64,000 bases of DNA, taken from positions 186,001 to 250,000 of the forward strand of contig JAURXM010000116.1 of NCBI GenBank assembly GCA_030654395.1. Reading direction: 5' to 3'. The stretch is from Aquabacterium sp. (GTDB taxonomy: Bacteria; Pseudomonadota; Gammaproteobacteria; Burkholderiales; Burkholderiaceae_C). The notes under the pieces were generated by a model that worked only from the letters and a program-made list of their open reading frames with translations, was not told the origin of the DNA and made no database searches. The stretch's first letter is position 1, and each line of letters begins with the position of its first letter. Shown here one piece after another: positions 42,407 through 63,671 of the stretch. The position numbers and the translations under genes are program-made.

Positions 42407-42418
42407 AGCTTTCTCTGT

Positions 42419-42495
<77 letters not shown>

Positions 42496-42588
42496 TTAGA
42501 GTTGATGCAGTCCTTGTTAAGTAGCTTGGATTGATATTTGATTAGATGCGATCTGGCTGTTGCTGCGTCGAGTGAGAATAAATCCTGT

Positions 42589-42665
<77 letters not shown>

Positions 42666-53599: not shown

Positions 53600-53675
53600 G
53601 CGCCCGTAGCTCAATGGATAGAGTACTGCCCTCCGAAGGCAGGGGTTGCTGGTTCGATCCCAGCCGGGCGCACCA
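53600..53675 (+). tRNA. tRNA-Arg (CCG)
   Basis: 76 nt. Acceptor GCGCCCG pairs with CGGGCGC, anticodon stem CTGCC/GGCAG with loop CTCCGAA, and encoded CCA. Reads CGG. Confidence 0.97.
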
Positions 53676-53683
53676 TATGTATC

Positions 53684-53715
53684 AAGCACTTAGCTTCGCG
53701 GCTAGGTGCTTTTTT
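53684..53715 (+). terminator. Terminator after tRNA-Arg
   Basis: AAGCACTTAGC (53684-53694), loop TTCGCG, GCTAGGTGCTT (53701-53711) with one G-U pair, then T to 53715. Confidence 0.85.
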
Positions 53716-53848
53716 CTTGGCGGTAGGAAAATGATGGCTGTCTTTGTGTACCGTGATACGGCCTGTCGGGGCGTGCAGGTATGGCAAAGTACCCTTTTCA
53801 GTCTTGAGCGCGCGCCACATTTGACGACACACTCATCGGGTTCCTGTT

Positions 53849-54754
53849 TTGAATCGACCTCTGCCTTACTCACTCAACTTGCTGCGCGTGTTCGAAGTCG
53901 TCGCTCGCTTCGAAAGCATCAAGCTTGCAGCAGACAAGCTGTGTCTGACGCCTTCGGCTGTTAGCCAGCAACTCAAAAGCTTGGAATCGCAGCTGGGTAT
54001 CACGCTGTTTGATCGGCATCCCAGTAGGCTGCAATTGACCTCGATCGGTAAGCAGTACGCCACATCGATTCGCCCGATTTTGTCCGCGCTCGACGAAGTC
54101 ACCGCGGGCGTTTGCGAGCGTGGTCGTGATCAGCAAATCCTTCGGGTGACCATGCTCACGCCGATGGCCAACCGCATCGTGCTCCCCAGGCTCAAATCGT
54201 TTAGACAGGCGCACCCAGACATTGAATTGCACTTGGACAGTACCCGCCAACATCAGGATTTGCAGCAACGGCAGGTTGATTTGGCCTTTCGCTATGGCAG
54301 GCCTCCATGGGCAGGTTGTGTTCACGAAAAGCTGCTGGATCTCTACGTTCAGCCTATTTGTAGCCCGGCATTGGCCGCTGAATACGGCCTGAGCGACCAA
54401 TCAACAGAAGCACTGAGGTATCCGCCTCTGGTGCACATGACGGAACGCCCGGATGCGTGGGGCGTGTATCTGGCTCACATCAATGTGCACCGTGAAAGCG
54501 CCACAACCGATTTTCATGTGGATGACTACCCCTCGGCCATCGAGGCAGCAGAAACCATTGGCGTGAGCCTGGCCGTCATGCCGCTGGAGCAACCCTTGGT
54601 GAAGAGTGGGCGGGTTCAAGCAGCAGGGCCCGTGACGGGGCCATTGCCTGATGGCTTGTATGCCGTGATGCTGCCTGAGATGCAGGCTGATCCACGCGTG
54701 GTGGGATTCCTGGCTTGGATCCGTGCCCAGCTGGCATCCAGTGGGCAAGGCTAA
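53849..54754 (+). CDS. LysR-family transcriptional regulator (GcvA-like)
   Basis: 301 aa from TTG 53849. Winged helix-turn-helix at ~5-65 (LLRVFEVVARFESIKLAADK...SAVSQQLKSLESQLGITLF), then a periplasmic-binding-like effector domain. It lies upstream in the same orientation as the 167-aa gene and the probable alcohol-oxidation genes. Candidate palindromic sites follow in both copies of the cassette. A remnant of its 3' end (~30 bp) is carried at the start of the second copy, showing the duplication began inside this gene. Confidence 0.9.
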   Translation: MNRPLPYSLNLLRVFEVVARFESIKLAADKLCLTPSAVSQQLKSLESQLGITLFDRHPSRLQLTSIGKQYATSIRPILSALDEVTAGVCERGRDQQILRVTMLTPMANRIVLPRLKSFRQAHPDIELHLDSTRQHQDLQQRQVDLAFRYGRPPWAGCVHEKLLDLYVQPICSPALAAEYGLSDQSTEALRYPPLVHMTERPDAWGVYLAHINVHRESATTDFHVDDYPSAIEAAETIGVSLAVMPLEQPLVKSGRVQAAGPVTGPLPDGLYAVMLPEMQADPRVVGFLAWIRAQLASSGQG

Positions 54755-54757
54755 GGC

Positions 54758-54776
54758 ATCAGTTTGGCTGATGCTG
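54758..54776. promoter_or_regulatory. Candidate LysR-type site, copy A
   Basis: GCATCAG, 5-bp spacer TTTGG, CTGATGC: a perfect 7-bp inverted repeat containing ATC-N9-GAT, a T-N11-A LysR box. It sits 4 bp after the LysR stop and about 75 bp before the 167-aa gene. Confidence 0.55.
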
Positions 54777-54793
54777 GCCTTATAAATGATCGT

Positions 54794-54848
54794 TTGATGC
54801 GCGCTAAGCGAATGCACACAATGAATCCATCTTTTTTGAGGATTCATT
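54794..54848 (+). promoter_or_regulatory. Promoter and operator/leader hairpin of the 167-aa gene, copy A
   Basis: TTGATG (54794-54799), 17 bp, CACAAT (54817-54822) is a weak promoter. A perfect 9-bp inverted repeat follows: AATGAATCC (54820-54828), an 11-nt loop and GGATTCATT (54840-54848), ending 1 bp before the ATG. The GAGG that should act as ribosome binding site begins in the loop and runs into the right arm, so the RNA hairpin would mask it; as DNA it could be an operator. Confidence 0.6.
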
Positions 54849-54849
54849 C

Positions 54850-55353
54850 ATGTCTGCCATCATCCATCCACGCACCTACACAGCATCGGAGTTGCTGAGT
54901 CAACGACAGTCAGAACTCGATGAGTTGTTCACTGTCTTGCCCGCGGTCTCGGCCAAAAGCGTCCAAGGTCATTACGCTGGCCGTCTGTTTGCCATCTTGG
55001 GCTTGGGTGTGCTGCCAAGGTTCGTGGCGTCCGGCTTCTATCGCCTGATGGGGGCACCCATCCTCAACCCATGGCGCGGCAAGTCCTTCAACAAGGGTGT
55101 GGGCGCCAATCATTGGTTTGGCGTCAAAGGCCTTGCGTTTGGCCGATACACCGTCAGCAACGGCGTCAGTGAAGTTGATGGCTTGCCCGCCCTGCTGTTG
55201 AACTACGACGTGCCAGAGAACTTGGCCCTGCTGCGTCGGATCAGGGGCGAGGCCCGCCAGCTGAGTGATGGCGTGGTGCTGGCCCGCATGAACTGGAAGA
55301 CCCGTGCAGGCGTTTACCGCGTGCTGTACTTCACTTTGCGCAAGGGTGACTGA
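54850..55353 (+). CDS. Uncharacterised 167-aa protein, copy A
   Basis: 167 aa, no signal peptide. Differs from copy B at only two residues (L15/V, H88/S). The first half carries SVQGHYAGRLFAILGLGVLP; the second half WRGKSFNKGVGANHWFGVKG, LPALLLNYDVPENLALLRRI and YRVLYFTLRKGD. The layout (G-x-W/Y-x-G near the start, a late YD-x-P...R pattern and terminal Y-x-x-L/F strand) faintly recalls the GXWXG-DUF4334 lipid-binding-type fold; this is a weak guess. The gene is the first of the cassette. Confidence 0.85.
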   Translation: MSAIIHPRTYTASELLSQRQSELDELFTVLPAVSAKSVQGHYAGRLFAILGLGVLPRFVASGFYRLMGAPILNPWRGKSFNKGVGANHWFGVKGLAFGRYTVSNGVSEVDGLPALLLNYDVPENLALLRRIRGEARQLSDGVVLARMNWKTRAGVYRVLYFTLRKGD

Positions 55354-55376
55354 CGCGCAGCGTGTCGTCATCAACC
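55354..55376 (+). pseudogene. Scar of a deleted GMC oxidoreductase gene
   Basis: After the 167-aa stop the sequence still follows the first ~25 bp of the copy B GMC gene, but its start codon is ACG and one base is missing (GCGCAGCG-TGTC versus GCGCAGCGATGTC). Then ~28 bp of unrelated sequence lead to the AhpD-like leader, which matches copy B from just after its GMC stop. About 1.4 kb of gene is lost. Confidence 0.8.
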
Positions 55377-55437
55377 AATGCATATTTCTTGAGGGCGGAA
55401 TGCCCGCGTTCTTCATCAAGTGAAAGTGAGACCCATC

Positions 55438-56031
55438 ATGTCATCAGCAACAGCATGCGCTGTGCCCACTCGCTTTACGAAGCGAACCTTTACCGCGGGT
55501 TTGTTTGCTCGCAGCATGTTCTCAGTCGTCATGCATCTTCCAACCTTGGCCCTTGCCATGGTCTCGCCGCGCACATCTCGTGCCCTGCGTGAGCAGGTCA
55601 TGCTGGCCGTTACATCGGTCAATGGCTGTCGATACTGCAGTTGGTTGCACACCGGATTGGCCTTGGAAAACGGGGTCGATCTGGCTGAGCTGCAAAGCAT
55701 CCTGGAATCCGAAGGCATTGAGGTCAAAGATACCCCAGAAGCCGTTGCCATCCTGTTTGCCAAGCACTTTGCGGACACGGTGCGGCAGCCTTCTGCTGCA
55801 GCCGTTCAATCGCTGGAGCAAGTCTTCACGCCTGCCCAAAAGCGAGAAGTCATGGCTTACATCCATGCCATTTACGTGGGCAATCTCAGCGGCAACTGCA
55901 TGGACGCCTGGCTGGCTCGGCTGCGCGGGCAACCCGTAGATACGGGTAACCCAGTCACCGAGGCCGTGGCTGCCATCATCGCTTCCCCGATATTGTTGGC
56001 CATCTGGTTGGCAAATCGGTCCAAACGCTGA
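55438..56031 (+). CDS. AhpD-like / carboxymuconolactone decarboxylase-fold protein, copy A
   Basis: 197 aa from ATG 55438. All-alpha CMD fold with the redox motif C64-x2-C67-x3-H71 (NGCRYCSWLHTGLAL), as in AhpD, where the cysteines act in peroxide reduction. The C-terminus is hydrophobic (EAVAAIIASPILLAIWLAN) and may be a membrane anchor or helix packing. It differs from copy B at about ten residues. The trxB gene further down could supply its reducing power; that is inference. Confidence 0.85.
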   Translation: MSSATACAVPTRFTKRTFTAGLFARSMFSVVMHLPTLALAMVSPRTSRALREQVMLAVTSVNGCRYCSWLHTGLALENGVDLAELQSILESEGIEVKDTPEAVAILFAKHFADTVRQPSAAAVQSLEQVFTPAQKREVMAYIHAIYVGNLSGNCMDAWLARLRGQPVDTGNPVTEAVAAIIASPILLAIWLANRSKR

Positions 56032-56047
56032 TCACGGAGTTTTGACC

Positions 56048-56509
56048 ATGCGTTTTCTAGAGCACAAAATTCCGCCCCCGGTTGTGGGTTTGCTCATTGG
56101 CGCGGGCATGTGGTTCATCGCCGCATCGATGCCGAAGCTCGCGCTGGGTGACCTGCTGCGGTGGGCGATGGCTGGATGGCTGATTGCCGGTGGGTTGAGC
56201 ATCACCTTGCTTGGTGGATGGGCATTTCGTCGAGCCCAAACAACCGTCAACCCATTGAAGCCAGAGGCTGCATCCACACTGGTTGTGGCCGGTATATATC
56301 GGTACACACGCAATCCAATGTATGTTGGCTTTGCCATGGTGCTTATCGGCTGGGCGGCTTATCTGTCGTCTCCTCCAGCTTTGTTGGGCCCCGCATTGTT
56401 CGTGCTGTTCATTACCCGTTTTCAGATCGTTCCTGAAGAACGCGTGCTGAGCGTCAAGTTTGGCCAGCAGTTTGCTGCGTACAAGGTGCAGGTGCGGCGA
56501 TGGCTGTGA
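56048..56509 (+). CDS. Isoprenylcysteine carboxyl methyltransferase-like membrane protein
   Basis: 153 aa, four hydrophobic segments. The C-terminal signature VVAGIYRYTRNPMYVGFAMV and a late EERVLSVKFGQQFAAYKVQV (the EE-x-L-x3-F-G-x2-Y pattern) belong to the ICMT/PEMT membrane methyltransferase family. In bacteria the substrates are mostly unknown, often lipids. 16 bp after the AhpD-like gene, probably co-transcribed. Confidence 0.88.
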   Translation: MRFLEHKIPPPVVGLLIGAGMWFIAASMPKLALGDLLRWAMAGWLIAGGLSITLLGGWAFRRAQTTVNPLKPEAASTLVVAGIYRYTRNPMYVGFAMVLIGWAAYLSSPPALLGPALFVLFITRFQIVPEERVLSVKFGQQFAAYKVQVRRWL

Positions 56510-56634
56510 GCCAACAACCTAGCCCGCCTCAACATCACGCGTTTTAAAACAGCTCCGATAGAGCAGAGGCTGTTCTCCTGTGCGGACGCTGGCATTGCGC
56601 CGCACCGTACAGCCACGCCTTGTCGAAAATTTGA

Positions 56635-57594
<960 letters not shown>

Positions 57595-57667
57595 GCCAAA
57601 CGCCAACCCAGGATTGCACCTTTTAGGTACACGAAGCGGTTGAGCCGCTCGATTGGAAGGAACAAGC

Positions 57668-58546
57668 ATGACGGACAAGACCAATCTATTGCGGATTTCT
57701 GGGGCATTCAGCGAGCGCGTCGCGCGCCTGTTCGCAGCCCAGCAGGCCGCATTTCTGAAGCAACCCTACCCTGAAGCTGCTCAGCGCATCGCCCAACTCA
57801 AGGCCTTGCGCACGCAGATCTCGCGTTATCAGGACGTGCTGGCCGAGGCCATGCGCAAGGACTTTGGCTATCGACCTGCGGCCGAATCAAAAATGGTCGA
57901 TCTTCTCGGCTCGACATTGGAATTGAACCATGCCATCAAGCACGTGAAACGCTGGATGAAATCGAGTCGGCGCTCGGTTGAATGGATGTTCCTCACCAAC
58001 AGAGTCGAGGTGACCTACCAGCCCAAAGGCGCGAGCGTTGAGGCCTGTGCGCCGATCCCTGCCGGCACCGGGCGGCAGATGCCGTTGCACATCGTCACGA
58101 ATATGAGCCCTGACATGGCGGTCATGAAGGAAGAGTTGTTCGGACCCGTGCTGCCGATCGTGCCCTACGACACGATGGAAGAAGCCATAGCCTTCATCAA
58201 CAAGCGGCCGCGCCCACTCGCCCTGTATTGCTTTAGTCACAACGGACACGAACGCGATGAGTTGCTGCGCCGCACGCATTCGGGCGGCGTGTCAGTCAAC
58301 GACTGGGGGTGGCACGCCATCAACCATGATGCGCCATTCGGTGGTGTGGGCAATTCGGGTATGGGGAACTATCACGGCGAGGAAGGCTTCCGCGAGCTGT
58401 CGCACGCCAAGACGGTGTTCCAGCGTCATCGCTTTTTCCCCATCGGGCTGTTTTATCCGCCATACGGCACCTTCGTGCCGCGCCTCGTACTGAAGGTGTT
58501 CTTGGGCAAAGGCGATCCGGAGTTGGGCGGCCAGGCTAGGCATTGA
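57668..58546 (+). pseudogene. Coniferyl-aldehyde-dehydrogenase-like gene with a large internal in-frame deletion
   Basis: 292 aa, against about 470-480 for the family. GGAAGG precedes ATG 57668. The N-terminal part (to EVTYQPKG, residue ~116) and the C-terminal part (from IPAGTGRQMPLHIVTN) are well conserved, but the middle ~180 residues are gone. These held the NAD-binding core (PWNFP, GGK) and the catalytic cysteine. The remaining frame is intact with no stop, so the loss is a clean deletion. It cannot be an active aldehyde dehydrogenase. Confidence 0.85.
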
Positions 58547-58619
58547 GTGCCTCCCGCTGTTCGACCCCGGCTGATTTGCGCCATACCTTTCACCACGCAT
58601 CAAATCGACGCAATCACCA

Positions 58620-58652
58620 TGCAAGACCCGTCCCCTGTAGGGAGGTCTTGCA
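58620..58652 (+). promoter_or_regulatory. Strong leader hairpin upstream of the acyl-CoA synthetase gene
   Basis: TGCAAGACC (58620-58628) pairs with GGTCTTGCA (58644-58652), and inside it TCCC (58631-58634) pairs with GGGA (58640-58643); only a 2-nt bulge interrupts 13 pairs. It ends 21 bp before the ATG; a possible RBS TAGGAGA follows. No T-run follows. Confidence 0.8.
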
Positions 58653-58673
58653 GGCATTCCATAGGAGACGACC

Positions 58674-60308
58674 ATGACGACCAGGCACTGGCAGGCCAGC
58701 TACGGCAGCATCCCTAAAGAAATCAACCCCGATGAGTACAACTCAGTCGTCGCGCTGATGGAGCAGGCGATGAGCCGTTTCTCCGCGTTGCCGGCGTTCC
58801 GTAGCGTTGACCAGACGCTGAGTTACGCGGACATTGACCGCTTGTCGCGAGACTTTGCTGCCTACCTGCAGGGCAAGCTCGGCGTGAAAAAGGGCGACCG
58901 CGTCGCTGTCATGGCGCCGAACCTGCTCGCCTTCCCGATCGCCTTCCTGGGGATCATTCGCGCGGGTGCCGTGCAAGTGAACGTGAACCCGCTGTACACG
59001 CCGCGTGAGCTGGAGCATCAGTTGAATGACGCGGGCGTTGAAACGATCTTGGTCTACAGCGGCGTGTCAGGCACGGTGGCTGAGGTGATGCCTAAGACGC
59101 GATTGAAGACCGTCATCACGACCGGTGTCGGCGACGGCAGTGGCGCCGCCTTGCCGAGCACGCCTGTCGATCAGCGCCTGAATGGCTCGATCACGCTCGA
59201 TGATGCGCTCGCCGATGGCGCTGCACTCACCTTGCTGCCTGTCGAGGTCGGTGGCGACGACCTGCTCTTCCTGCAATACACAGGGGGCACCACCGGGCTG
59301 TCCAAAGGTGCTGCACTTTCGCACCGCAACCTCGTAGCCAATATCGAGCAATTCAAGGCCTTCATGCCCGAGAACCTGCGGCCCGGGCAGGAGGTTCTCG
59401 TGACAGCGGTCCCGATGTATCACATCTTCGCGCTCATGGTGAACTTCATTACTTACTTTTCGGTGGGTGCAGACAACTGGCTGGTGCCCAACCCGCGCGA
59501 CTTCGACAACTTCATCGACACCTTGAAGAAATCGCGGCCCAGCATCTTCACCGGCGTCAACACGCTGTACGCCGGCTTGGTCGCGCACCCCAAGAGTAGA
59601 TCGGTCGACTGGTCCAATCTACGCCTGGCTGTAGGCGGTGGCTCTGCCGTAATCCGGTCCGTGTCAGACAAGTGGTTGGCGCTCACCGGCACCTTCATTC
59701 GTGAAGGTTTTGGCATGTCGGAGGCAAGCCCGGCTGTCAGTTTCAATCCGGCCTCCGTGCAGAGCTTCAACGGCACCACCGGGCTGCCGATGCCCTCGAC
59801 CGACGTTAAGCTCCTTGATGAGGCCAACCGCGAGGTCAGCATCGGTGAACCCGGCGAGATCTGCGTCAAGGGCCCGCAGGTCATGCGTGGCTACTGGCTA
59901 AGGCCAGAAACCCAGGCCAGTACCTTCACCGAGGACGGCTACTTCCGCACCGGTGACATCGGCGTGTTTGACGACAAGGGATTCCTGAAGATCGTCGATC
60001 GCAAGAAGGACATGATCATCGTCTCTGGTTTCAACGTCTTCCCGAACGAGATAGAGGAAGTGGCGACCGCCTGCCCTGGCGTATTCGAATGCGCTTGCGT
60101 TGGCGTACCTGACGAGAAATCGGGCGAAGCGATCAAGCTGTTCGTCGTGAGGGCGGCCGGTTCCGAGTTGACTGAGGCCGACTTGCTTGCCCATTGCCGC
60201 AAGGACTTGACAGGCTACAAAGTGCCGAAAATCGTGCGTTTCGTCGATGCGCTGCCGAAGTCGACGGTCGGCAAAATCCTGCGCCGCGAATTGCGCAACG
60301 TGGCGTGA
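58674..60308 (+). CDS. Long-chain fatty acid-CoA ligase-like AMP-binding enzyme (FadD type)
   Basis: 544 aa. ANL superfamily adenylating enzyme: P-loop-like YTGGTTGLSKGAALSHRN, GYFRTGDIG (A8 hinge) and the catalytic lysine near the C-terminus in PKSTVGKILRREL. It activates a carboxylic acid with ATP and CoA. The RBS is TAGGAGA. Context (GMC oxidase, aldehyde dehydrogenase) suggests the acid comes from alcohol oxidation. Confidence 0.92.
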   Translation: MTTRHWQASYGSIPKEINPDEYNSVVALMEQAMSRFSALPAFRSVDQTLSYADIDRLSRDFAAYLQGKLGVKKGDRVAVMAPNLLAFPIAFLGIIRAGAVQVNVNPLYTPRELEHQLNDAGVETILVYSGVSGTVAEVMPKTRLKTVITTGVGDGSGAALPSTPVDQRLNGSITLDDALADGAALTLLPVEVGGDDLLFLQYTGGTTGLSKGAALSHRNLVANIEQFKAFMPENLRPGQEVLVTAVPMYHIFALMVNFITYFSVGADNWLVPNPRDFDNFIDTLKKSRPSIFTGVNTLYAGLVAHPKSRSVDWSNLRLAVGGGSAVIRSVSDKWLALTGTFIREGFGMSEASPAVSFNPASVQSFNGTTGLPMPSTDVKLLDEANREVSIGEPGEICVKGPQVMRGYWLRPETQASTFTEDGYFRTGDIGVFDDKGFLKIVDRKKDMIIVSGFNVFPNEIEEVATACPGVFECACVGVPDEKSGEAIKLFVVRAAGSELTEADLLAHCRKDLTGYKVPKIVRFVDALPKSTVGKILRRELRNVA

Positions 60309-60362
60309 ACAGCCTAGCCTTGTTGATCCGTGCCCCCTGGCATCCAGTGATACATGCTTAAA

Positions 60363-60381
60363 GCATCAGTTTGGCTAATGC
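60363..60381. promoter_or_regulatory. Candidate LysR-type site, copy B
   Basis: GCATCAG-TTTGG-CTAATGC, the same site as in copy A with one mismatch in the right arm. The T-N11-A spacing is kept, so the LysR protein could bind both. Confidence 0.5.
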
Positions 60382-60400
60382 TGGCCTTATAAATGATCGT

Positions 60401-60455
60401 TTGATGCACGCTAAGCGAATGCACACAATGAATCCATCATTCTTGAGGATTCATT
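60401..60455 (+). promoter_or_regulatory. Promoter and operator/leader hairpin of the 167-aa gene, copy B
   Basis: AATGAATCC (60427-60435), 11-nt loop, GGATTCATT (60447-60455): both arms are identical to copy A while the loop has two changes (ATCATTCTTGA instead of ATCTTTTTTGA). The GAGG again straddles loop and right arm. Confidence 0.6.
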
Positions 60456-60456
60456 C

Positions 60457-60960
60457 ATGTCTGCCATCATCCACCCACGCACCTACACCGCATCTGAGGT
60501 GCTGAGTCAACGACAGTCAGAACTCGATGAGTTGTTCACTGTCTTGCCCGCGGTCTCGGCCAAAAGCGTCCAAGGTCATTACGCTGGCCGCCTGTTTGCT
60601 ATCTTGGGTTTGGGTGTGCTGCCAAGGTTCGTGGCGTCCGGCTTCTATCGCCTGATGGGCGCCCCCATCCTCAACCCATGGCGCGGCAAGTCCTTCAATA
60701 AGGGGGTGGGCGCCAATAGTTGGTTCGGGGTCAAAGGGCTGGCTTTTGGCCGATACACCGTCAGCAACGGCGTCAGTGAAGTTGATGGCTTGCCCGCGCT
60801 GCTGTTGAACTACGACGTGCCAGAGAACCTGGCCCTGCTGCGTCGGATCAGGGGTGAGGCCCGCCAGCTGAGTGATGGCGTGGTGCTGGCCCGCATGAAC
60901 TGGAAGACCCGCGCAGGCGTTTACCGCGTGCTGTACTTCACCTTGCGAAAGGGCGACTGA
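60457..60960 (+). CDS. Uncharacterised 167-aa protein, copy B
   Basis: 167 aa, 165 identical to copy A. By eye about 25 base differences separate the two genes, of which all but about three are silent, a sign of selection on the protein. The stop TGA shares its last base with the GMC ATG (TGATG), so it is translationally coupled to the oxidoreductase; a partner or substrate-carrier role for that enzyme is plausible but unproven. Confidence 0.87.
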   Translation: MSAIIHPRTYTASEVLSQRQSELDELFTVLPAVSAKSVQGHYAGRLFAILGLGVLPRFVASGFYRLMGAPILNPWRGKSFNKGVGANSWFGVKGLAFGRYTVSNGVSEVDGLPALLLNYDVPENLALLRRIRGEARQLSDGVVLARMNWKTRAGVYRVLYFTLRKGD

Positions 60961-62396
60961 TGCGCAGCGATGTCATCATCATTGGCAGCGGCTTTGGTGG
61001 CTCATTTGCTGCACACCAGCTGGTTAAAGCGGGCGCCAAAGTCACGATGATCGAGCGTGGCCCATGGCGCCAAACGGCAGCACTTGAGCGCCTGGGTGTG
61101 CAGATGGAGCGCAGCCCTTTGCCCCGTGGCCGGCACGTGTTCAGTCATTTGGTGCGTGAGGTGCATGCCCCCTTCTTGAAGGCCAGCGGCGTGCGCTTGA
61201 ACCGGCACGGTCTGTTTGACATCCACCTCGGGGGGGAGTTGACCGTGGTGTGCAGCAGCGGTGTGGGCGGGGGCAGCCATGTGTACTCCGCCATGAACAC
61301 GCGCCCGATCGACCCGGCATATTGGACTGGCCATGTGGATGGCGTTGACGAGCACGTCATGTCGCCTTGGTATGACCAAGCACTTGGCATCATGGGCTCA
61401 CAGGTGCCCCAGCTGGGCCAAGGCATGCCCAATTTCACCGGTGATCGTTTGGCAGCAGATCCCCTGCTGAAGGCCGATCCAGATTTGGCCCAACCAGCCA
61501 TGGGCTATCGGTTTGAGTCTGGCCACTACCGCAACAACAGCTTCTTTGGCAGCGCGCAAGGCGACAAAGTCACGCTGGACGAGCGCTTGATCGTGCCCGC
61601 CACGTCGCAAGGGCTGACGGTACTGGACAGGCACGAGGCACTCGATATCGGGGCGGCCGCCAATGGCTGGCGCGTCACGGTCAGGGACGAGGGCGGCCGA
61701 TACCGCCACCTGCAGGCACCGCGCGTCATCATGGCGGCAGGCACACTCAACACCATGCGGCTGATGCTGAGCTCGCGTGCTCGCGGTCAATTGGGTGAGC
61801 TGCCGGGCTTGGGCTTGGGTATCGGCGGCAATGGCGATTCGCCTGCATGGTGGGCTTGCCAGCATGAAGATGCTGACTACAGTCTGGGCCCACCTTGCCA
61901 TGGTCGCTTCGCCTTGCGTGAAGGCGACACGCCCGGCTACCTCACCTCGTTTGGCCTGAACGGTGTGGACGAATTGCCTCTGCCAGCTTCTATCAAAAAG
62001 CGGCTGAAGCAGAGCCTGCTTTTGGTGGGCATGGGGCCCGATGGGGCCAATGGGCAAGCGGTATGGCGCAAAGGCAGGTTGCAACTGCGCTACGACCGAG
62101 AGGCCAACCCGATACTGGGCGACATCGCCAAGGCCTACCGTCAACTGGGCCTGGCATCCGGGAAGCCGCTCTACCAGTTCCCGCAATGGCCGGCCACTGT
62201 GCACCCGCTGGGCGGCGCGCGCCTGAGCCAGACCGCGCACACCGGCGTTGTCAATGGGCAAGGCCAAGTTCATGGCCTGCCAGGCTTGTACGTTGCCGAT
62301 GCCAGTGCCTTGCCTGCTGCACCTGGCACACCACCTTCCATGACCATCGCCGCATGGGGACAGCACGTCGCCCAAGGCATTTGTCTAGTGGGCTGA
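60960..62396 (+). CDS. GMC-family FAD oxidoreductase (cholesterol-oxidase-like)
   Basis: 478 aa. FAD motif VIIIGSGFGGSFAAHQLVKA at the N-terminus, SSGVGGGSHVYSAMNTRP, and near the C-terminus TVHPLGGARLS, which contains the active-site histidine region, then GLYVADASALPAAPGTPPSM. No secretion signal. Enzymes of this branch oxidise sterols, long-chain alcohols or similar hydroxyl compounds to carbonyls. It is fused in translation to the 167-aa gene and followed by the AhpD-like gene. Confidence 0.9.
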   Translation: MRSDVIIIGSGFGGSFAAHQLVKAGAKVTMIERGPWRQTAALERLGVQMERSPLPRGRHVFSHLVREVHAPFLKASGVRLNRHGLFDIHLGGELTVVCSSGVGGGSHVYSAMNTRPIDPAYWTGHVDGVDEHVMSPWYDQALGIMGSQVPQLGQGMPNFTGDRLAADPLLKADPDLAQPAMGYRFESGHYRNNSFFGSAQGDKVTLDERLIVPATSQGLTVLDRHEALDIGAAANGWRVTVRDEGGRYRHLQAPRVIMAAGTLNTMRLMLSSRARGQLGELPGLGLGIGGNGDSPAWWACQHEDADYSLGPPCHGRFALREGDTPGYLTSFGLNGVDELPLPASIKKRLKQSLLLVGMGPDGANGQAVWRKGRLQLRYDREANPILGDIAKAYRQLGLASGKPLYQFPQWPATVHPLGGARLSQTAHTGVVNGQGQVHGLPGLYVADASALPAAPGTPPSMTIAAWGQHVAQGICLVG

Positions 62397-62434
62397 TCGC
62401 CCGCGTTCTTCATCAAATGAAAGTGAGATCAACC

Positions 62435-63028
62435 ATGTCTTCAGCAACGGCACCCTCATTGCCCACTCGCTTTACGAAGCGAACCTTTACAGCGGGCTTG
62501 TTTGCTCGCAGCATGTTCTCAGCCACCATGCATCTTCCAACCTTGGCCCTTGCCATGGTCTCGCCACGTACGTCTCGCGCACTGCGTGAGCAGGTCATGC
62601 TGGCCGTCACATCGGTCAACGGCTGTCGATATTGCAGCTGGTTGCACACCGGATTGGCCTTGGAGAACGGAGTCGATCTGGCTGAGCTGCAAGGCATTCT
62701 GGAATCCGAAGGCATAGAGGTCAAAGATACCCCAGAAGCCGTTGCCATCCTGTTTGCCAAGCACTTTGCAGACACTGTGCGGCAGCCTTCTGCTGCAGCC
62801 GTTCAATCTCTGGAGCAGGTCTTCACACCTGCCCAAAAGCGTGAAGTCATGGCCTACATCCACGCCATCTACGTGGGCAATCTGGCCGGTAATTGCATGG
62901 ATGCTTGGCTGGCGCGGCTGCGTGGACAAGCCGTAGACACGGGCAACCCAGTCACCGAGGCCGTGGCTGCCATCATCGCATCGCCCATATTGCTGGCCAT
63001 CTGGTTGGCCAATCGCGACAAGCACTGA
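62435..63028 (+). CDS. AhpD-like / carboxymuconolactone decarboxylase-fold protein, copy B
   Basis: 197 aa from ATG 62435. The C64-x2-C67-x3-H71 redox motif is the same as in copy A, and differences are confined mostly to residues 7-9, 30-31 and the end. It probably handles peroxide from the oxidase, as AhpD-type proteins do; this is inference from context. Confidence 0.85.
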   Translation: MSSATAPSLPTRFTKRTFTAGLFARSMFSATMHLPTLALAMVSPRTSRALREQVMLAVTSVNGCRYCSWLHTGLALENGVDLAELQGILESEGIEVKDTPEAVAILFAKHFADTVRQPSAAAVQSLEQVFTPAQKREVMAYIHAIYVGNLAGNCMDAWLARLRGQAVDTGNPVTEAVAAIIASPILLAIWLANRDKH

Positions 63029-63070
63029 TCACGCATCAAATCGATGCAGCTTACTGGCTAGGCCTTATAT

Positions 63071-63592
63071 ATGCGCACCGTTGCTTGTACCCGTGACCGT
63101 CACGCCGAGTCCATCCTCGCGATCTTCAATGATGCGATCGTGCATTCAACGGCGCTTTACGACTACTCGGCCAGGCCGCTGTCATCCATGGACGCGTGGT
63201 TTGCAGCGAAAGCAGCGGGCGGCTTCCCCGTCATTGGCATCGAGTCTGAGTCGGGCGAGTTGTTGGGTTTTGCGAGCTATGGTGTATTCAGGGCATGGCC
63301 TGCGTACAAGTACACCGTGGAGCACGCCGTGTACGTTCACAAGGACCACCGTGGTTCGGGCTTGGGGATGAGGCTCATGGGTGAGCTCATTGCGGCAGCG
63401 AAGGCGCAAAACCGCCACGTGCTGGTGGGCTGCATCGATGCCAGCAACCAAGGCAGCATCGCGCTGCACGAGCGGCTCGGGTTTGCGCATGCCGGGACCA
63501 TCAAACAGGCCGGGTTTAAATTTGGGCGCTGGCTGGATGTGGCGCTGTATCAACTGATCCTTGACACCCCCTCTGAGCCTGTGGATGGCTAG
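63071..63592 (+). CDS. GNAT N-acetyltransferase (phosphinothricin acetyltransferase-like)
   Basis: 173 aa. GNAT fold: SILAIFNDAIVHSTALYDYS, acetyl-CoA-binding loop in VYVHKDHRGSGLGMRLMGEL, then VGCIDASNQGSIALHERLGF. Resembles PAT/Bar-type acetyltransferases, which act on glufosinate or methionine sulfoximine-like amines. An AGG lies 9-12 bases before the ATG in a GGCCTTATAT context that echoes the leaders of the two cassette copies. Confidence 0.88.
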   Translation: MRTVACTRDRHAESILAIFNDAIVHSTALYDYSARPLSSMDAWFAAKAAGGFPVIGIESESGELLGFASYGVFRAWPAYKYTVEHAVYVHKDHRGSGLGMRLMGELIAAAKAQNRHVLVGCIDASNQGSIALHERLGFAHAGTIKQAGFKFGRWLDVALYQLILDTPSEPVDG

Positions 63593-63671
63593 AAATAGCA
63601 GGTCAAAGCCCTTTTGAATTGGGCGGTCAACCCTCAGGAAGTGCGGCCCAATGAGGCCATGAGGATTCAGC

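Follow-up and report, generated by a model that had tools for sequence, protein, structure and literature searches.

In a 64,000-nucleotide stretch of an Aquabacterium genome (assembly GCA_030654395.1, contig JAURXM010000116.1, positions 186,001 to 250,000, or G000:C122:186001-250000 in our numbering; referred to below as the window), we encountered two diverged copies of a gene set that, when complete, consists of a LysR-type regulator, a 167-residue protein (orf167), a GMC flavoprotein and an AhpD-like protein, in this order. Different members are missing from the two copies: copy A has no GMC gene and copy B no regulator gene, and orf167 and the AhpD-like gene (ahpD) are retained under constraint in both. 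The explanation that we favour, at a probability of roughly 0.6, is that a horizontally moving set was duplicated, that complementary losses followed, and that the pair is now locked in, because losing either copy would mean losing a part that only this copy carries. The source contig is 357,762 bp long, in an assembly of 4.37 Mb and 132 contigs, and all genes, relics and elements assigned coordinates in the duplicated region lie on the forward strand.

Two copies of a four-gene set with complementary losses

Copies A (54718..56036) and B (60325..63033) are represented in BLASTN alignments by two segments, of which the first pairs positions 54718-55373 with 60325-60981 (617 of 658 columns identical, 94%) and the second pairs positions 55375-56036 with 62372-63033 (592 of 662, 89%). 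They form a pair of long repeats that share order and orientation and are far above chance expectation. The initial annotation had placed the 167-residue and AhpD-like genes in two copies about 5.6 kb apart, the former about 95% identical and with mostly silent changes, and each of these statements holds, the limits of homology (54718 and 63033) coinciding exactly with those it gave. The orf167 genes (54850..55353 in copy A and 60457..60960 in copy B) are identical at 479 of 504 nucleotides (95.0%), with approximately 22 silent and 3 replacement changes. Those for the AhpD-like protein (55420..56031 in copy A, starting with GTG at 55420 or ATG at 55438, and 62417..63028 in copy B, starting with ATG at 62417 or 62435) are identical at 550 of 612 nucleotides (89.9%), with approximately 45 silent and 17 replacement changes. 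The spacing between copies is 5,607 bp for orf167 and 6,997 bp for ahpD, a difference of 1,390 bp that exists because the GMC gene has been deleted from copy A, a deletion absent from the initial annotation. Exactly two matches to orf167 are present in the assembly, namely copies A and B. The duplication is real, and it is not recent.

The repeat had been described as a two-gene cassette, a reading that gives way here to a four-gene set from which copy A has lost GMC and copy B has lost LysR. The GcvA-like LysR regulator (53849..54754; Pfam HTH_1 and LysR_substrate), which is 88-89% identical to its counterpart in Aquabacterium parvum (A. parvum), is present in full only ahead of copy A. Copy B begins within the final codons of the LysR gene, and aligning both copies with A. 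parvum delimits a 3'-end stub of about 36 bp (60325..60361). Conversely, the 478-residue GMC flavoprotein (60960..62396; Pfam GMC_oxred_N and GMC_oxred_C) is complete only in copy B, and a decayed relic of it is recognisable in copy A (55354..55399) when the latter is aligned to copy B and to A. parvum. This relic comprises 45 bases in which the two ends of the gene (55354-55373 and 55375-55399) are fused, the start codon and the stop are changed and one base is lost. The assembly contains a single GMC protein of this kind (one match at E<=1e-60, in copy B) and a single LysR of this type (29% identity for the second-best match), and therefore the two copies complete each other.

Since the losses are complementary, with LysR only at A and GMC only at B, and both remainders are constrained, the copies are candidates for a subfunctionalised pair. 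As in subfunctionalisation by complementary loss, they have lost different parts and jointly hold the whole set; what differs is that here a bacterial operon has lost its regulator gene in one copy and its enzyme gene in the other, and that copy B would depend on the LysR protein of copy A. In the sequence of events that we infer, the set LysR - orf167 - GMC - ahpD would have been inserted next to tRNA-Arg(CCG) in this lineage of Aquabacterium and would then have been duplicated, or a close relative of the set added. Copy A would have lost GMC early and the regulator of copy B would have been reduced to its stub, leaving orf167 and ahpD under purifying selection in both copies. The one remaining LysR protein may act in trans on a conserved upstream element of both copies, with copy B providing the GMC enzyme and both copies providing orf167 and the AhpD-like protein.

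Selection on the two copies

The Ka/Ks comparison proposed in the initial annotation yields ratios of replacement to silent divergence (dN/dS) between A and B of 0.041 for orf167 and 0.104 for ahpD. All four gene copies are open and constrained between copies, and the observation that both copies are kept together with their upstream repeat is upheld. Constraint on copy A itself was assessed from the changes unique to A, using A. parvum as the third sequence in a tree of three sequences that is unrooted. Such changes occupy 8 of 732 sites at codon positions 1 and 2, as against 33 of 366 at position 3 (p 3e-10). The GMC relic carries changes unique to A in 7 of 46 columns, which differs from positions 1 and 2 (p 7e-6) and does not differ significantly from position 3 (p 0.19), so that the relic has changed at about the pace of silent sites. 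This is suggestive of an early loss of GMC from copy A while the neighbouring genes remained constrained.

Occurrence of the set in other genomes

Complete LysR - orf167 - GMC - ahpD sets in the same order are found at six other loci, in A. parvum (B6, contig NZ_LFRI01000211.1; L005), a Nevskiales metagenome-assembled genome (MAG; L006), a MAG designated only as 'bacterium' (L007), Alcanivorax sp. 1008 (L008), an Alcanivoracaceae MAG (L009) and genome G506 (L104). The stretches compared span 10.9-18.5 kb, and that of A. parvum starts at a contig end 1.4 kb before orf167. One scan of genome contigs returned 5 loci. The distribution is patchy. Strong matches to both orf167 and GMC occur in 2 of 42 genomes of the genus, the present one included; orf167 is matched in 3 of 299 genomes in the family sample (this genome and weak matches in G139 and G090; G305 is not among the matches shown), in 3 of 369 in the class sample (this genome, G506 and a weak partial match in G681) and in 1 of 17 genomes from the family of G506. 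The weak matches, which in the genus comprise G330, G301, G309 and a second one in G305, were not counted as representatives of the set, nor were those of G139, G090 and G681. None of the window genes is found within the 3 kb around the weak orf167 matches of G139 and G090 (L003 and L004). Among the other weak matches, the loci L119 and L120 adjoin an open reading frame (ORF) that resembles a short-chain dehydrogenase, as judged from the sequence.

Silent divergence (dS) from A. parvum amounts to 0.19-0.26 for orf167, 0.27 for GMC, 0.57-0.64 for ahpD and 0.69 for LysR, compared with 0.66 (SecB), 0.93, 1.31, 1.35 and 1.55 for five core genes that flank the insert. The contrast with the core genes is clear for orf167 and GMC and is not so for LysR and ahpD. 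The patchy occurrence, the different location of the set in A. parvum and the low dS together argue for horizontal spread, and the set was probably acquired horizontally. A search of a plasmid collection with orf167 at E 1e-5 gave no match, and a plasmid origin was rejected on this basis. Across the A. parvum locus (L005:394-4011) the silent divergence from the present genome is uneven, with low values for orf167 and GMC and high ones for LysR and ahpD. This hints at recombination within the set, perhaps more recent in the central genes than in the outer ones.

The upstream element

The hexamer CGTTTG is located upstream of orf167 in all eight copies read, at 54791..54796 in copy A and 60398..60403 in copy B. 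Its distance from the end of the upstream region is 59 nt in A, B and A. parvum, 61 in L007, 62 in L008 and L009 (where a second one occurs at 46), 75 in L006 and 99 in L104, where the start is uncertain. No other 6-mer is common to the five lineages B, L006, L007, L008 and L104, and any common 6-mer was obtained in 0 of 5000 first-order resampled sets. This element is a candidate binding site for LysR. Promoter and terminator scans gave yields no higher than those of shuffled sequences.

A recurrent insertion site beside tRNA-Arg(CCG)

The set lies within an interval of about 10.0 kb (53676..63671) that extends from a tRNA-Arg(CCG) gene (53600..53675, forward strand; ARAGORN and Rfam), adjoining a cytochrome c gene, to a gene encoding an HDOD-domain protein. 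The corresponding interval measures 444 bp in G324 and 408 bp in G326. Cytochrome c loci were given for 30 of the 41 matching genomes of the genus, several of them cut by contig ends; at all 30 loci examined, including our own, the tRNA and cytochrome c genes are neighbours, and the HDOD gene follows after 0.4 kb within the locus in 2 of 30 (G324 and G326). The insert is situated at the 3' side of a tRNA and is absent from these two relatives, as expected of a genomic island. Among ten longer stretches (L091-L100), that of G324 has almost nothing in the interval, the HDOD gene follows after 4.0-10.8 kb in five (G159, G305, G303, G241 and G033), that of G336 extends to TrmL without an HDOD match, and those of G333, G321 and G325 do not extend as far as an HDOD gene. 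At this site G321 carries a repeat of 37 nt of the tRNA, type I restriction genes and an integrase (PHROG 1, E 1.5e-27; its Pfam score of 24.3 bits is just below the cut-off of 27.1), and G033 carries a repeat of 44 nt of the tRNA and a HipA-like gene, a type of gene also present here in G159 and G241. Within the genus, the space from tRNA-Arg(CCG) to the HDOD gene is a variable and recurrent insertion site, or hot spot.

Like tRNA-targeted islands, the insert of about 10 kb directly follows tRNA-Arg, where relatives carry other cargo; unlike them, it shows neither an integrase nor a tRNA repeat. No integrase or transposase was recognised among its main ORFs with Pfam and NCBIfam (small ORFs left out), no direct repeat of the tRNA 3' end is present at its right border (the best matches score 10), and no inverted repeats are found at the copy borders, those detected being 15-22 nt long, imperfect and located elsewhere. 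An origin as a transposon or insertion sequence, or as a composite transposon, was rejected, as the main ORFs lack a transposase and the borders lack inverted repeats. The earlier statement that no mobile element explains the cassette thus stands as regards a recognised transposase, integrase or tRNA repeat, but it overlooks the hot spot at tRNA-Arg(CCG), the patchy occurrence of the set and its divergence from A. parvum, which is lower than that of most core genes. A 19-nt direct repeat with one mismatch and a short palindrome inside (CACGCATCAAATCGAYGCA) occurs at 58594-58612 and 63030-63048, upstream of the FadD-like gene described below and just past copy B. It could be a footprint of the arrival of copy B or a binding (regulatory) site.

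Alternative histories of the pair

Several observations weigh against the favoured history. The relic offers only 46 columns, so that an early loss of GMC is suggested rather than established, and LysR (dS 0.69) and ahpD (0.57-0.64) overlap with the lowest of the core genes, SecB (0.66). The motif ATCGTTTG is found 7 times in the window, where shuffled sequences have a mean of 1.97, and is not specific on its own because of these occurrences. The assembly is a draft, 95.62% complete and with 8.27% contamination. Finally, dS of orf167 is 0.197 between A and B and 0.186 between B and A. parvum, so that the distance between the copies is no smaller than that from B to A. parvum, which a simple duplication following the separation from A. 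parvum would not predict. The three orf167 sequences are approximately equidistant, B being nearest to A. parvum by a small margin. This margin, some letters that the upstream stretch of B has in common with A. parvum against A, and the patchy, horizontally moving nature of the set would also fit two acquisitions, in which a related donor contributed copy B independently, as a fragment that began within LysR. However, A and B are clearly closest to each other over ahpD (dS 0.37, compared with 0.57-0.64 to A. parvum) and over the upstream 95 bp (5 differences, compared with 17-18), as fits duplication after the split. We consider two acquisitions unlikely, and duplication is favoured over recombination or a second acquisition.

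It is improbable that copy A is a decaying leftover, in which orf167 and ahpD are dispensable and remain intact through recent decay or gene conversion from B. Its GMC gene is gone, its ends have decayed, a nearby aldehyde dehydrogenase (ALDH) gene is truncated too, and runs of identity such as positions 61-120 of orf167 (100%) leave room for some conversion. Yet conversion would reduce silent divergence as well, and on the A branch the silent-type positions have changed far more often than the replacement-type positions (the 33/366 and 8/732 given above), next to a relic that has evolved at the silent rate. An assembly artefact or strain chimera, for which the contamination of the draft and the occurrence of two internal deletions inside 10 kb might be cited, is very improbable: misassembly is unlikely because the copies, within one contig of 357,762 bp, are 5-10% divergent and unlike in structure, and the relic of GMC has acquired its own point changes. 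In addition, the flanking genes for cytochrome c, tRNA-Arg, HDOD, TrmL, GpsA and SecB stand in the order seen in G324.

Predicted functions of the set

The flavoprotein belongs to the GMC superfamily, scoring 30.9 bits for GMC_oxred_N (cut-off 23) and 57 bits for GMC_oxred_C (cut-off 24.6) in Pfam. It matches cholesterol oxidase 1coy over the full-length profile (E 9e-28) and keeps the FAD-binding motif and the histidine of HPLGG, but the asparagine of 1coy, which we take to be an active-site residue, is replaced by proline in 7 of 7 sequences, and the score against the NCBIfam cholesterol oxidase model is 79 bits, compared with a cut-off of 850. An identity as cholesterol oxidase, which would call for both the active-site histidine and the asparagine, was accordingly rejected. 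The AhpD-like copies belong to the CMD family, with Pfam scores of 32.8 bits (A) and 31.5 bits (B, in a longer ORF; cut-off 23), NCBIfam ahpD_dom above cut-off in both copies, and CxxCxxxH in both. They differ from the AhpD/CMD family in standing beside GMC and orf167, not AhpC, and the match covers only part of the domain.

Neither window copy of orf167 has a Pfam match at E<=10. A structure model of only fair quality (mean predicted local distance difference test score of 68) gave 4mve_A (Tcur_1030) as the best and only Foldseek match at E<=0.001 (E 3.3e-5; template modelling scores 0.54/0.60), and the weaker matches include ligand-binding barrels amid unrelated folds. The GXWXG family (PF14231), considered here together with Tcur_1030, is detected below threshold in the orf167 proteins of L006 and L007 (12.7 and 11 bits against 25); membership of this family was rejected for orf167, as the window copies lack a Pfam match. 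The likely chemistry would have the GMC enzyme oxidise a hydrophobic substrate at an alcohol group; orf167, as a putative barrel-type protein, might bind or present the ligand, and the AhpD-like protein might handle peroxide or thiol redox through its CxxCxxxH motif.

Bacterial duplications are usually lost or amplified rapidly, and complementary loss of operon parts provides a clear, testable route to a permanent duplication. We tentatively propose that the pair exemplifies complementary loss in a bacterium, with the only regulator in one operon copy, the only key enzyme in the other, accessory genes in both and one LysR protein serving both promoters in trans. On the same tentative proposal, the set would represent a redox operon that has not been described before, is controlled by LysR and has spread horizontally; within it, orf167 would be the partner that presents the ligand to a GMC enzyme without the usual active-site asparagine. 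The titles and abstract openings listed in a literature search contain no description of this gene set, which does not in itself prove that it is unpublished. The four-gene set marks an uncharacterised flavoenzyme operon common to distant proteobacteria, and the window adds a recurrent insertion site in the genus together with a tidy example of duplication lock-in, assembled from ordinary parts whose chemistry is only predicted.

Genes between the copies

The region between the copies encodes a PEMT-family methyltransferase (56042..56509; Pfam PEMT 48 bits), a second thioredoxin reductase (TrxB; 56650..57594; NCBIfam TIGR01292, 367.8 bits with a cut-off of 343.45), the ALDH (57653..58546) and a FadD-like acyl-CoA ligase of 544 residues (58674..60308; Pfam AMP-binding; NCBIfam PRK07059, 671.8 bits, below the cut-off of 869). 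The lipid and redox genes that the cassette was said to bracket look incidental, as no matches to ALDH, FadD, TrxB or PEMT occur in the stretches compared at the six other loci. The ALDH carries an in-frame internal deletion of about 200 residues, including the region of the catalytic cysteine (GQTC), and its Pfam match covers only profile positions 346-461; what remains is 63-68% identical to a homologue of 488 residues in L116, from a genome of the same order, and L117 holds a match of 69%. As assembled, the gene lacks the complete Aldedh domain with catalytic cysteine that a functional ALDH would need. A pathway from alcohol to acyl-CoA by way of GMC, ALDH and FadD was set aside, as the ALDH lacks its catalytic centre and the set occurs without ALDH and FadD at the six loci.

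In G846 (L117:2521-6091) an AMP-binding ligase that is 34% identical to the FadD-like protein directly follows a relative of the ALDH, and the ALDH and ligase may be old neighbours. The other thioredoxin reductase of the assembly, on contig C101, is 77% identical to the one in the window and is as similar to those of other genomes of the genus. Elsewhere in the window, two consecutive tRNA-Met genes (42415-42495 and 42585-42665) are identical across 81 bp.

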